Shown here in pieces: positions 3,693 through 13,663 of a stretch of 54,104 bases of DNA. The notes under the pieces are model-generated. The model did no database searches. It was given only the letters and a program-made list of their open reading frames with translations, and was not told where the DNA came from. Location: positions 1 to 54,104 of the forward strand of contig NZ_AFXZ01000044.1 in assembly GCF_000224335.1 (NCBI RefSeq), written 5' to 3'. Source of the stretch: Bizionia argentinensis JUB59. Its GTDB lineage: Bacteria > Bacteroidota > Bacteroidia > Flavobacteriales > Flavobacteriaceae. Numbering within the stretch: position 1 is the first letter of the stretch; the number at the start of each line of letters is the position of its first letter. Position numbers and translations under genes: made by a program.

Positions 3693-4079
3693 ATGAGTTT
3701 TATAAATAAATTATTTGGAGGTTCTAATGAGCCTAAAGAAGAAAAGGTCTTACCTTGGAAAGCCTTAACAACTGTGGCACAATTAGATGAAATTGCTGAA
3801 AAGTCTAAAACAAAAACACAGATTATTTTTAAGCATTCTACACGTTGCGGTATTAGTAAAATGGCTATGAATCAATTTGTGGATGATTATGATGTTGATT
3901 TAAATGTAGATTTATATTATCTCGACTTATTAAATTTCCGAGACGTTAGTAGTGAAACGGGTTACAAGTTTCAAGTGCTTCATGAATCACCGCAATTATT
4001 AATTATAAAAAATGGTGTTTCTGTGGCACATGCTAGTCATGGTGCTATTAATAGTATGGATTTACAGCGTTACGTATAG
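3693..4079 (+). CDS. ytxJ: Bacillithiol system redox-active protein YtxJ
   Basis: This is a 128-residue thioredoxin-like protein. The active-site region KHSTRCGIS carries a single cysteine (C52) where classical thioredoxins have CxxC, so it is a monothiol type. A cis-proline equivalent lies in HESPQLLIIKNG, near residues 100-112. YtxJ-family proteins are proposed bacilliredoxins that remove bacillithiol from mixed disulfides in the cytoplasm. Bacillithiol is the usual low-molecular-weight thiol in many Bacteroidota. The gene is divergent from clpB across a 212-bp region that carries inverted repeats, so shared stress control is possible but unproven. The next gene, the fluoride operon, has its own leader. 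Confidence 0.85.
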   Translation: MSFINKLFGGSNEPKEEKVLPWKALTTVAQLDEIAEKSKTKTQIIFKHSTRCGISKMAMNQFVDDYDVDLNVDLYYLDLLNFRDVSSETGYKFQVLHESPQLLIIKNGVSVAHASHGAINSMDLQRYV

Positions 4080-4169
4080 TATTTATATCTTGTGATGGGT
4101 GCTCTCGAAATTATTTGAGCGTTTTTCTATTGATCTGTTATTTTTAATTTACCTTTGTATTTCAAATAT

Positions 4170-4222
4170 TTGGCAATGAGGTCTGCCTTAAACCGTTCTA
4201 TCTAGAGCTAATGACATCTACT
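4170..4222 (+). ncRNA. Fluoride riboswitch aptamer (crcB motif)
   Basis: The sequence matches the known fluoride aptamer layout almost position by position. P1 is GGCA (4172-4175) paired with TGCC (4184-4187), enclosing ATGAGGTC. The linker TTAAACC follows, then P2 GTTCT / AGAGC with an ATCT loop, then TAATGACATCTACT. The loop GAGGTC can pair with GACATC as the expected pseudoknot, with one G-A mismatch. It ends 42 nt before the start codon of a CLC transporter, the expected kind of target gene. In this family fluoride binding turns on genes that expel fluoride. Confidence 0.88.
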
Positions 4223-4262
4223 TTAATGGCTTATGCCAATGTAGAATCATGTATTTAAGGCA
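4184..4262 (+). promoter_or_regulatory. Predicted translational expression platform of the fluoride riboswitch
   Basis: TGCCTTAAA (4184-4192), which includes the 3' strand of aptamer stem P1, is perfectly complementary to TTTAAGGCA (4254-4262). The latter ends 2 nt before the ATG at 4265. The two pairings exclude each other: without fluoride the ribosome-binding region would be masked, and with fluoride the aptamer would hold 4184-4187 and free it. A small hairpin (TGGC / GCCA, 4227-4238) lies between. There is no T-run, so a transcriptional terminator is unlikely. The mechanism is inferred from base complementarity. Confidence 0.6.
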
Positions 4263-4264
4263 AT

Positions 4265-5569
4265 ATGAAAAATAATAGAATTAAGAAGTTTTTACTCTCA
4301 TATGAACAAATTCCCACATTATTATATCTTTTAAAATGGATTTTAATCTGTTTGACATTGGGTGTCATAACAGGAAGTATTTCGGCTTTTTTTCTGATCA
4401 GTTTAGAATGGGCAACAAATTGGCGAGAATCTCACCTCTGGATTATAGGCTTCCTGCCTCTTGGTGGACTATTAATTGGCTTATCTTATCATTATTTTGG
4501 GAGTAGCGTTGTAAAAGGCAATAACTTATTGCTTGAGGAATTTCATAGTCCAAAAAAAATAATTCCGTTTAGAATGGCGCCATTGGTGTTGTTTGGAACT
4601 ATTGTAACGCATCTCTTTGGTGGTTCAGCAGGTAGAGAGGGAACAGCAGTACAAATTGGAGGCGCAATTGCAGATCGATTTACAAAAAGTTTAAAATTAT
4701 CAAAACGCGATAGACAAATTGTATTAATTGCAGGAATTAGTGCTGGATTTGCTTCTGTATTTGGAACGCCGTTAGCAGGTGGTGTTTTTGCTTTGGAGGT
4801 TTTAATTCTTGGAAGAATAAGATTAGATGCTATTGTTCCTAGTTTTATGGCAGCCGTTTTTGCTGATTATTTTTGTACAATTTGGGGTGTTTCTCATACG
4901 CAATATACGATAAGTACAGTAGCGGAAATGACGCCTGTAAACCTTTTATGGTGCTTGTTGGCAGGGATTATTTTTGGTCTTGTTGCTATGCTTTTTTCTA
5001 AATCTACCCATTTGTTTTCCAGTCTTTTTAAAAACAATGTAAAATATCCACCATTAAGACCGGTTATTGGCGGAACAATATTAGCAATCGCTATATATTT
5101 TATGGAAACCACAAAATATATTGGCCTTGGAATACCAACAATTGTGGATGCATTCAACATAAACCTGAATTCGTATGATTTTATATTAAAACTCTTATTT
5201 ACATCATTTACACTTGGCGCAGGTTTTAAGGGCGGTGAAGTAACGCCTTTATTCTTTATAGGTGCGGCTTTAGGTAATGTATTAATCTGGTTTATACCGC
5301 TACCAATGCCATTGCTGGCTGGAATGGGGTTTGTTGCAGTTTTTGCGGGAGCAACAAATACACCAATTGCATGTACTATAATGGGGATAGAGCTTTTTGG
5401 AATTGAATCGGGTGTTTTTATTGGTCTGGCTTGTTGCACGGCTTATTTGTTTTCTGGACATTCGGGCGTTTATTCTTCACAAATTATAGGAAGCCCAAAA
5501 CACAACTTATTTATGCGCGAGAAAGGTCTTCCTTTATCTGAAATTAAAAATAAAAGATCTCAAAAATGA
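4265..5569 (+). CDS. CLC-family transporter, probable F-/H+ antiporter (CLC-F clade)
   Basis: This is a 434-residue membrane protein with the many hydrophobic helices of the CLC fold. The gating-glutamate motif reads GREGTAVQ (E125). The first selectivity motif, GSGIP in chloride-selective CLCs, is replaced by KGNNLL around residues 84-89. These departures, a single short transporter without CBS domains, and the fluoride riboswitch upstream all point to the fluoride-exporting CLC-F group. Automatic annotation would probably call it a voltage-gated chloride channel. It would expel fluoride from the cytoplasm in exchange for protons. The stop codon overlaps the start of the DUF190 gene by 4 nt (ATGA), so the two are co-translated. 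Confidence 0.85.
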   Translation: MKNNRIKKFLLSYEQIPTLLYLLKWILICLTLGVITGSISAFFLISLEWATNWRESHLWIIGFLPLGGLLIGLSYHYFGSSVVKGNNLLLEEFHSPKKIIPFRMAPLVLFGTIVTHLFGGSAGREGTAVQIGGAIADRFTKSLKLSKRDRQIVLIAGISAGFASVFGTPLAGGVFALEVLILGRIRLDAIVPSFMAAVFADYFCTIWGVSHTQYTISTVAEMTPVNLLWCLLAGIIFGLVAMLFSKSTHLFSSLFKNNVKYPPLRPVIGGTILAIAIYFMETTKYIGLGIPTIVDAFNINLNSYDFILKLLFTSFTLGAGFKGGEVTPLFFIGAALGNVLIWFIPLPMPLLAGMGFVAVFAGATNTPIACTIMGIELFGIESGVFIGLACCTAYLFSGHSGVYSSQIIGSPKHNLFMREKGLPLSEIKNKRSQK

Positions 5570-5907
5570 AAGACTTAATAACGATTCGGATTTATTTTGA
5601 ATATGGTCAGAAAATTAAAAATCAATCCCTTTGGAAAAAATTATTTGCTTCCGATTTTTCAACAGAATTAATGAAAAGTGCAAAAGCATTTGGCTTACAT
5701 CAGGTTCTGCATCTAAATGTTAATAAAGGTTATTTGAGTAATCAGAAAATGAATTGGGGAACAAACGAAATACGGCATCATAAACACCCACATCTTATTG
5801 AGATAATGGATTCAGAACTTAAAATAAATCAATTTTTGAAAGAGCAAAAGCACTTATTAGATGAAACTAAAATTGTAATAGTTAAAAATGAAGTGGTTCT
5901 AAAATAA
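5566..5907 (+). CDS. DUF190 family protein, co-transcribed with the fluoride antiporter
   Basis: This is a 113-residue soluble protein with the DUF190 pattern: an N-terminal strand TIRIYFEYGQK, a helix KSAKAFGLHQVLHLNVNKGY, and a final strand KIVIVKNEVVL. The fold is ferredoxin-like and related to PII signalling proteins. DUF190 genes often sit beside fluoride channel genes (crcB/fluc), and here one sits beside a CLC-F gene. Its start overlaps the antiporter stop (ATGA at 5566-5569), which places it in the same riboswitch-controlled operon. A role in regulating fluoride export is likely by association, but its molecular function is not known. Confidence 0.8.
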   Translation: MKDLITIRIYFEYGQKIKNQSLWKKLFASDFSTELMKSAKAFGLHQVLHLNVNKGYLSNQKMNWGTNEIRHHKHPHLIEIMDSELKINQFLKEQKHLLDETKIVIVKNEVVLK

Positions 5908-6209: not shown

Positions 6210-7184
6210 ATGAAAATAAAGATTGATAAGTTTGTTCTCTTTATTATTGGAATCATATTATTAGCTTATTTTTTTCCGCAATGGGGATCGGAAGAAAGTG
6301 ATATCCCTATCGATACGATCAGTGCGATTGGAATTTCGCTTATTTTCTTTTTCTATGGGCTTAAATTAAATCCAACACAATTAAAAGCGGGACTCAAAAA
6401 CTGGAAATTGCATCTTTTAGTTCAGGGAGCCACATTTTTAATGTTTCCGTTATTGGTTTTATTGTTTCGCCCATGGATTCAAAATGAAGGACAAGAAACC
6501 ATTTGGTTAGCCTTCTTTTTCTTGGCGGCATTACCATCAACCGTATCATCATCGGTTGTTATGGTGTCTATGGCTAAAGGAAATATTCCAGCAGCTATTT
6601 TTAACGCTAGTATCTCTGGAATTATTGGTATTGCTATTACACCGCTTTGGATGGGTTTGTTTATTAATGATACACAAACAGATTTTGATTTCACAGACAT
6701 TTACATCAAGCTTATTGTTCAAATAATTTTGCCCGTAATTTTAGGACTTTTATTACAACGCTTTTTGGATGAATTTGCGCGTAAACACAGTCGTAAATTA
6801 ACAATATTTGATAAGTCTATAATCTTATTAATAATATATAAAAGCTTCGCAGAGTCTTTTAATAATGAGATTTTTAGTTCTGTATCACTTTTAGATTTAC
6901 TCGCAATTTTTGTAGGAGTAATTGTATTGTTTGTTATCGCTTTTTCTTTAACAGGTTTTATTTCTAGAAAGTTAAAACTTAACAAAGAAGATCAAATAAC
7001 GGCGCAGTTTTGCGGGACAAAAAAATCATTAGTACACGGTACGGTTTTTTCGAAAATATTATTCGGGAATATGGCGATTATCGGTGTCATCTTATTGCCG
7101 CTAATGTTATTTCATGCCATACAAATTTTAATAATTAGTATAGTTGCCAGCAGATTATCTAAAAGGCCAGCGTCTAATTTGTAA
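6210..7184 (+). CDS. SBF-like (SLC10A7/YfeH-type) bile acid:sodium symporter family protein
   Basis: This is a 324-residue integral membrane protein with about nine to ten hydrophobic helices and no signal peptide. The segments FFYGLKLNPTQLK, FFLAALPSTVSSSVVMV and FCGTKKSLVHGTV are characteristic of the SBF-like branch, which includes bacterial YfeH and animal SLC10A7, rather than true bile-acid carriers. The substrate is not evident, and members have been linked to organic anions and to calcium homeostasis. It is monocistronic. A bidirectional terminator at 7199-7230 separates it from the convergent fumarylacetoacetase gene. Confidence 0.85.
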   Translation: MKIKIDKFVLFIIGIILLAYFFPQWGSEESDIPIDTISAIGISLIFFFYGLKLNPTQLKAGLKNWKLHLLVQGATFLMFPLLVLLFRPWIQNEGQETIWLAFFFLAALPSTVSSSVVMVSMAKGNIPAAIFNASISGIIGIAITPLWMGLFINDTQTDFDFTDIYIKLIVQIILPVILGLLLQRFLDEFARKHSRKLTIFDKSIILLIIYKSFAESFNNEIFSSVSLLDLLAIFVGVIVLFVIAFSLTGFISRKLKLNKEDQITAQFCGTKKSLVHGTVFSKILFGNMAIIGVILLPLMLFHAIQILIISIVASRLSKRPASNL

Positions 7185-13382: not shown

Positions 13383-13412
13383 TTGTGAACATTTTAAAAG
13401 ATTGTATATTTG
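13383..13412 (+). promoter_or_regulatory. Promoter of the SRP RNA gene
   Basis: TTG at 13383-13385 and TATATTTG at 13405-13412 are separated by 19 nt, the ideal Bacteroidota -33/-7 spacing. The predicted start falls near 13417-13420, at the 5' end of the RNA. Confidence 0.75.
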
Positions 13413-13416
13413 CCGC

Positions 13417-13514
13417 GGGCAAGTCCTACACAACCAGCTCCTGTTGAATCCTCCAGGGCGGGAACGCAGCAAAGGTAAATGGTCGTAGCGGTGTGATGTA
13501 GGTAGCTTGCCCTT
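13417..13514 (+). ncRNA. ffs: Signal recognition particle RNA, small bacterial type
   Basis: About 98 nt form one long hairpin: the ends GGGCAAG and CTTGCCC pair, as do CCTACAC and GTGTGATGTAGG further in. The conserved apical SRP core reads CCTCCAGGGCGGGAACGCAGCA, here split as CCTCCAGGGCGGG then AACGCAGCAAAGG. This asymmetric loop and tetraloop region binds Ffh. A run of seven Ts at 13513-13519 forms the terminator. The RNA is part of the particle that targets membrane proteins co-translationally. Confidence 0.95.
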
Positions 13515-13663
13515 TTTTTATGCCTTTACTTTTCCTTTCCAAATATGAAAGGATTTATATAAATGAGATTTGTAGACGGTTAGTTTACAAATCTTTTTCA
13601 TTTTATAGCATATTCCATATTTCATTCTTAATTTTACGATCTTAAATTTCACACGAAAAACGT

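Follow-up and report, generated by a model that had tools for sequence, protein, structure and literature searches.

A riboswitch-controlled CLC-F gene with an overlapping DUF190 gene in Bizionia argentinensis JUB59, a probable fluoride-resistance operon

Described systems and the Bizionia locus

CLC-F fluoride/proton antiporters are recognised by the signatures GNNLI/GMGLI (in place of GSGIP), GREGT/V and GEVTP, and riboswitch control was reported for about 30% of them (PMC11139923, available portion). The closest described system is the CLC-F of Enterococcus casseliflavus (EriC-F, PDB entry 6D0J); in the cited literature, as far as the available portions go, CLC-F is described as a transporter working on its own. 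A stretch of 54,104 nucleotides from Bizionia argentinensis JUB59 (contig NZ_AFXZ01000044.1, positions 1 to 54,104; hereafter the window) carries a fluoride riboswitch, a CLC-F gene and an overlapping gene of the DUF190 family, and judged from sequence these most probably form a riboswitch-controlled two-gene operon for fluoride export and resistance, encoding CLC-F and a DUF190 protein of predicted PII-like fold. The main features are the following:

4163..4227, + strand: fluoride riboswitch aptamer (RF01734; cmscan 44.3 bits, E 4.4e-9)
4265..5569, + strand: predicted CLC-F fluoride/proton antiporter gene, 434 aa, with GNNLL, GREGT and GEVTP (Pfam, PDB match, motifs, tree)
5566..5907, + strand: CLC-linked DUF190 (putatively PII-like) gene, 113 aa, with a 4-nt overlap with the CLC gene (open reading frame, Pfam, fold model, tree)

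Riboswitch-controlled CLC-F is a known system. The DUF190 subfamily that goes with CLC-F was not found in print in the open-access literature, and no link between DUF190 and fluoride was found in open-access papers, an earlier mention being possible.

The window CLC is of the same family as the E. casseliflavus protein, with which it shares the GNN/GMN filter position, GREGT/V and GEVTP; it differs from 6D0J, to which it is 36% identical, in having an asparagine (GNN) rather than a methionine at the position of M79, and in having a DUF190 partner. Like the pairs of CrcB (Fluc) and DUF190, the locus sets a fluoride exporter gene beside a DUF190 gene, but the exporter family is unrelated and the DUF190 belongs to another subfamily. 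The window DUF190 resembles TM0021 (1O51), PH1503 (2DCL) and the regulators of the GlnK-AmtB and SbtB-SbtA pairs in its predicted fold and in being a small protein whose gene adjoins that of a membrane transporter. Pfam still labels DUF190 a family of unknown function despite solved structures, and the pairing with CLC-F supplies a function hypothesis for it. A 2012 genome paper put DUF190 proteins forward as relatives of GlnK that modulate other channels (PMC3543383, available portion), a proposal that supports the general idea of a modulator and not the fluoride link. Finally, the FRM fluoride-resistance island of Enterobacter cloacae (PMC5533749, available portion) resembles the window in being a fluoride riboswitch operon. 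The island table in that portion lists CrcB and neither CLC-F nor DUF190, whereas the window has CLC-F and DUF190 only; a Klebsiella plasmid relative shares the FRM set of crcB, phosphoglycerate mutase, eno and universal stress protein, with a DHHA2 protein replacing the pyrophosphatase.

The transporter and its riboswitch

The open reading frame at 4265-5569 matched the Pfam family Voltage_CLC (E 1.5e-76), and its best relatives in the PDB were 6d0j, 6d0k and 6d0n, all E. casseliflavus CLC-F (best 2.2e-63), followed by a chloride ClcA structure (1.1e-11). An earlier reading of the window made without database searches (hereafter the sequence-only reading) had pointed to GREGT and KGNNLL; both are present, and the protein carries all three CLC-F signatures: GNNLL (within KGNNLL, with a terminal L replacing I), GREGT and GEVTP (within GGEVTP), where E. 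coli ClcA has GREGP and GSGIP at the same motifs. In the alignment N86, E125, E325 and T327 of the window protein correspond to M79, E118, E318 and T320 of the E. casseliflavus protein (the chain numbering of 6D0J is three higher than that of the source paper), the roles of these residues being taken from the available portion of PMC12035849. In a CLC tree of 21 rows, which includes one characterised CLC-F and has long branches to 6D0J and to the outgroups, the 18 CLC-F rows including 6D0J lay on one side of a branch (98/98), and outside it lay E. coli ClcA and the host genome's two remaining CLCs; the placement that the sequence-only reading had proposed as a check thus fell with CLC-F.

The window transporter is a CLC-F, which by homology would expel F- in exchange for H+. 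The family name in Pfam and the label "voltage-gated chloride channel family protein" given to relatives speak for a chloride-selective CLC, the identity that annotation would give it; as the sequence-only reading foresaw, this name is borne by 47 of 60 plasmid relatives (the best 60 of 119 records). Such an identity is extremely improbable: the motifs, the PDB match (2.2e-63 versus 1.1e-11) and the tree rule it out in favour of CLC-F, and the gene has a fluoride riboswitch upstream. The host genome also encodes CrcB on another contig (C34:5097-5435), with no riboswitch or DUF190 adjoining it; about 3% of surveyed strains have both exporters (PMC11139923, available portion).

The aptamer matched RF01734, the Rfam fluoride riboswitch model, over its full length, its score lying above the gathering threshold of 34, and no second RF01734 match was found in the host genome. 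The sequence-only reading had placed a crcB-motif aptamer at 4170-4222, 42 nt 5' of the CLC ATG: these coordinates were right, and the covariance-model search it had proposed returned the match. Its wider argument, that the leader, the filter changes and the DUF190 neighbour speak for fluoride export, agrees with the RF01734 match, the CLC-F signatures and the tree, although fluoride export itself is predicted from sequence. The pseudoknot strands in the window are the following:

4178..4183, + strand: 5' strand of the pseudoknot, GAGGUC, in the P1 loop (pairs with 4213-4218)
4213..4218, + strand: 3' strand of the pseudoknot, GACAUC (pairs with 4178-4183)

Twenty aptamers were aligned: the window, those of the 12 of 29 other Flavobacteriaceae CLC-F loci that pass RF01734, and 7 of 16 from further sources. 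When two hairpins and the pseudoknot were bracketed, 91.4% of 279 cells were paired, and bracket versions slid along the alignment dropped to 33-53%. Changes on both sides of a pair were found in 32 cells against a mean of 12.8 in shuffled alignments, and the covariation score was 0.342 against 0.195 (0 of 500 shuffles as high for either); the number of further pair types (14 versus 14.4) showed no excess. The pseudoknot helix, which is missing from the Rfam structure line of the match, was paired in 96.7% of its cells, with 3 of 6 pairs changed on both sides; in the window five of the six pairs are standard and one is a G-A mismatch, common to locus L004. Pairing of the P1 loop with the 3' tail into a pseudoknot is a feature of fluoride riboswitches.

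Leaders of four loci (L006, L007, L009, L014) keep remains of the aptamer by eye before intact CLC-F genes, and RF01734 gave no match on them even at E 5. These are likely relic aptamers, and they suggest that fluoride control was lost in some lineages. A Burkholderia cenocepacia plasmid (L215, NZ_CP073671.1) carries four fluoride riboswitches in 8.3 kb, one of which precedes a two-gene stretch ending in mutS.

The DUF190 partner

As the sequence-only reading had noted, the DUF190 gene overlaps the CLC gene: its start joins the CLC stop through ATGA. Its product scored 26.3 bits (E 8.9e-6) against Pfam PF02641 for a cut-off of 23.4, a weak match above the threshold and the only PF02641 match in the host genome. 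Five of the 8 CLC-linked relatives scanned fall under the Pfam cut-off, and this may be the reason that, among the 57 plasmid matches of the window DUF190, 17 bear the name hypothetical protein; 35 others are named DUF190 and 5 have no listed gene. The structure model had a mean pLDDT (predicted local distance difference test) of 73.6. The top matches in the PDB were the DUF190 structures 1o51 (E 1.9e-4) and 2dcl (E 2.5e-4), followed by GlnK (1.1e-3) and SbtB, a bicarbonate-transporter regulator (1.6e-3), with CutA1 also among the matches; only three had E values of 0.001 or less, with TM-scores by query length of 0.46-0.59, and the ninth was the amidohydrolase 2imo, so that the weaker rows are not all PII-like. 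The modelled fold is thus likely to be the PII (ferredoxin-like) fold.

On plasmids the window DUF190 matched 57 records and the window CLC-F 119, the best 60 of which were used for comparison, and 48 of the 57 DUF190 records fall among these 60. In all 48 comparable records DUF190 follows CLC on the same strand, with a gap between matches of -17 to 110 nt, and in three further records inspected the CLC gene lies just upstream of DUF190 (51 of 51 checked, of 57). Many of these records look near-identical and are not independent events, and the count leans to the window's own subfamily, the query being the window protein. By plasmid genera, the pairing spans Bacteroidota, Nitrospirota (Manganitrophus), and beta- and gammaproteobacteria. 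Of the 12 CLC records among the best 60 of 119 that lack a DUF190 match, an alphaproteobacterial Sphingobium plasmid nonetheless has an annotated DUF190 directly behind CLC-F, and a Caballeronia record has no annotation to judge by. A fluoride riboswitch lies 5' of CLC-F in all ten CLC-F/DUF190 loci scanned (nine on plasmids, one in a Bacteroidota genome), and enolase, pyrophosphatase, phosphoglycerate mutase, universal stress protein, PAP2 and CrcB are neighbours at some loci.

Within the Flavobacteriaceae, a DUF190 like that of the window lies directly behind CLC-F at 8 of 30 CLC-F loci (window included, 1.5-kb flanks), and a profile search of the same loci returned the same 8. Among 80 Bacteroidota CLC-F loci from named genomes (profile search, flanks of up to 4 kb), which share at least two loci with the former set, four have DUF190: it comes immediately after CLC-F in Galbibacter, Leeuwenhoekiella and a Bacteroidota metagenome-assembled genome (MAG); in an Arcicella MAG it is preceded by a split enolase and an EamA gene. 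A fluoride riboswitch is present at each of the four, and in Leeuwenhoekiella it precedes the CrcB heading the gene row. The tail of the iterated DUF190 profile took in CrcB and long fused frames (L039, L040, L042), and these rows were not counted. In 395 Bacteroidota genomes, any DUF190 was found in 169 and CLC-F (E of at most 1e-60) in 58; the subfamily profile matched 26, three of them strongly (E<1e-30), and all three strong matches adjoin CLC-F. The CLC-linked DUF190 is a minority partner of CLC-F in Bacteroidota. The sequence-only reading had called such a partner notable: it is real, recurrent and of its own subfamily, but is missing from most of the Bacteroidota CLC-F loci examined.

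In Leeuwenhoekiella marinoflava (L064, 1714-8576) the row comprises riboswitch, CrcB, enolase, CLC-F, DUF190, two PAP2 genes, an MFS transporter and a universal stress protein. The window genes for bacilliredoxin BrxC (3693-4079) and an SBF-like transporter (6210-7184) were rejected as operon members: tblastn found neither within 1.5 kb of CLC-F at the 29 other Flavobacteriaceae loci.

CLC-linked DUF190 proteins are a subfamily separate from the CrcB-linked type. In a DUF190 tree of 48 rows one branch separates the 18 CLC-linked rows from all the others (99/92, and 99% of bootstrap trees, in a bootstrap that had not settled); the tree includes 23 of 30 CrcB-linked loci and one Comamonas row, and omits L041 (no CrcB), six CrcB-linked loci with frames of more than 135 residues, the Emticicia plasmid (internal stop), L006, L014 and L064. 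In Comamonas C11 the gene order is CLC-F, DUF190, CrcB, DUF190, EamA, and the DUF190 after CLC-F groups with the CLC-linked rows while that after CrcB lies on the opposite side; this operon, which combines the two exporters with the two DUF190 types, offers a natural test of specificity. The expectation of the sequence-only reading that DUF190 genes usually accompany Fluc/CrcB held for 29 of the 30 best-scoring Bacteroidota PF02641 loci, where CrcB adjoins DUF190, and failed at four of four lower-scoring loci. The CrcB count there is partly circular, since the 26 CrcB rows that went into the profile were picked by motif from those very loci; Pfam names one other match of this profile CrcB (L064). 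The four lower-scoring loci (L204-L207) have a third DUF190 subfamily directly 5' of an RND efflux gene (Pfam ACR_tran), with no CrcB nearby, and at L204 the gene preceding DUF190 encodes a CusB/HlyD-type fusion protein.

Three roles were weighed for the DUF190 protein. Proteins of the PII family, GlnK among them, exert their effect by binding to a transporter in the membrane, AmtB being the partner of GlnK and SbtA that of SbtB (see also the title of 7EGK). At this locus the stop-start overlap would lead from the exporter to a PII-like DUF190 of the CLC-F-linked subfamily, which would most likely bind the cytoplasmic face of CLC-F and adjust or stabilise it as GlnK does AmtB and SbtB does SbtA, a role held tentatively on fold, gene order and subfamily. 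An unlikely role, though one with some weight, is that of a soluble fluoride-stress protein, sensing nucleotides or metal fluorides or buffering divalent metals like CutA, rather than an exporter subunit. Fluoride perturbs divalent metals, and the neighbourhoods of fluoride exporters are enriched in transporters of divalent cations (PMC11139923, available portion); the occurrence of CutA1 among the fold matches, of another DUF190 subfamily directly before an RND efflux gene (4 of 4 loci), and of three DUF190 genes, belonging to two types, around a single CLC-F on a Pseudomonas syringae plasmid would fit such a protein. Yet the subfamily tracks the exporter, all 18 CLC-F-linked rows lying on one side of the tree and the two Comamonas DUF190 proteins on opposite sides, and this split speaks against a free stress protein because such a protein need not differ by exporter. 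More improbable is a passenger gene, inherited along with CLC-F because the two are linked in an operon, in many cases on a mobile element, and adding nothing to fluoride tolerance: the near-copies among plasmid records, the absence of DUF190 at most Bacteroidota CLC-F loci examined, and the damaged genes (split across two frames in L006, interrupted by an internal stop in the Emticicia plasmid) speak for it, but the pairing occurs in three phyla, its divergent sequences form one group, and the two reading frames stay close.

Several observations weigh against a DUF190 acting as a dedicated partner in a riboswitch-controlled operon. Neighbouring DUF190 genes are lacking at 22 of the 30 Flavobacteriaceae and 76 of the 80 Bacteroidota CLC-F loci, so CLC-F does not need DUF190. 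Among the seven DUF190-bearing Flavobacteriaceae loci other than the window, only L004 and L018 pass RF01734 (1.5 kb), and riboswitch and pair are not tightly tied. The structure model was built from just five sequences, and the GFG..SRIHT segment seen in the CrcB-linked type is missing from CLC-linked DUF190 proteins, so that ligand binding may differ. The P. syringae plasmid (L214, NZ_KY362372.1), which also carries enolase and pyrophosphatase, has a CLC-linked DUF190 immediately after CLC-F and two further DUF190 genes of the other type, one preceding the CLC-F riboswitch and one following it, and no CrcB was found within the 8.3 kb inspected; the Klebsiella plasmid has a CrcB without adjoining DUF190. 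These two arrangements indicate that exporter matching is not strict. A broader proposal, that each class of bacterial fluoride exporter has a dedicated PII-like subunit, one DUF190 set for Fluc and another for CLC-F, with further DUF190 proteins matched to RND exporters and the CLC-F type gating the antiporter against proton leak at low fluoride, is doubtful, slightly more so because on the P. syringae plasmid the two types flank CLC-F and no CrcB was seen; if it were true, the DUF190 family at large would be one of PII-like regulators matched to exporters. A partner of predicted PII-like fold in at least three phyla, partly missed by annotation, would offer a testable handle on the question whether fluoride exporters are regulated once made, and by what means.

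The leader between aptamer and start codon

The features of the leader are the following:

4184..4192, + strand: UGCCUUAAA, 3' strand of P1 plus junction, the predicted partner of the pre-start region in the absence of fluoride (minimum-free-energy fold, duplex test)
4254..4262, + strand: UUUAAGGCA, predicted sequestered ribosome-binding region directly 5' of the CLC start codon (minimum-free-energy fold, duplex test)
4226..4258, + strand: possible 10-codon upstream open reading frame (uORF; MAYANVESCI), with its stop 6 nt 5' of the CLC ATG (read from sequence)

In the minimum-free-energy fold of 4163-4285 (-25.6 kcal/mol), UGCCUUAAA is paired with UUUAAGGCA; this pairing competes with P1 and covers the region 5' of the CLC ATG. 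The full 9-base complement also occurs in L004 and L010 and a partial one in L008; it is absent from L063 and L065, though both have a riboswitch. With moderate confidence we infer an ON switch that acts on translation and is turned on by fluoride. As fluoride rises, the aptamer at 4163-4227 would bind it and close the pseudoknot; the closed pseudoknot would retain the P1 3' strand in base pairing within the aptamer, leaving the region upstream of the CLC start codon free, and translation would rise. In a duplex test of aptamer against start region, made on 18 mutually related leaders with start codons chosen by hand, the window gave p 0.034 against shuffles. Two results speak against a translational switch: the fold of the window is weak (z -1.86, 10 of 200 shuffles equally good), and p fell below 0.05 in only 7 of the 18 leaders, with a median of 0.25.

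Fluoride riboswitches of other bacteria commonly act on transcription, and a terminator/antiterminator switch would also suit the small number of leaders with a supported translational pairing. At this locus it is rather unlikely: a scan of the + strand between aptamer and start codon found no terminator-like site, the hairpin at about 4218-4244 is without a T-run, and the region 5' of the start codon is where the predicted alternative pairing falls.

The uORF, which falls within the expression platform of the riboswitch, was rejected as a control element. An equal-length uORF is present in L004, L010 and L073; it is fused in frame to CLC in L008 and L065 and overlaps it out of frame in L063, and no control is claimed for it because its exit is not conserved among relatives. 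Elsewhere in the window, an ordinary Bacteroidales small signal recognition particle RNA was found at 13410-13516 (111.4 bits).

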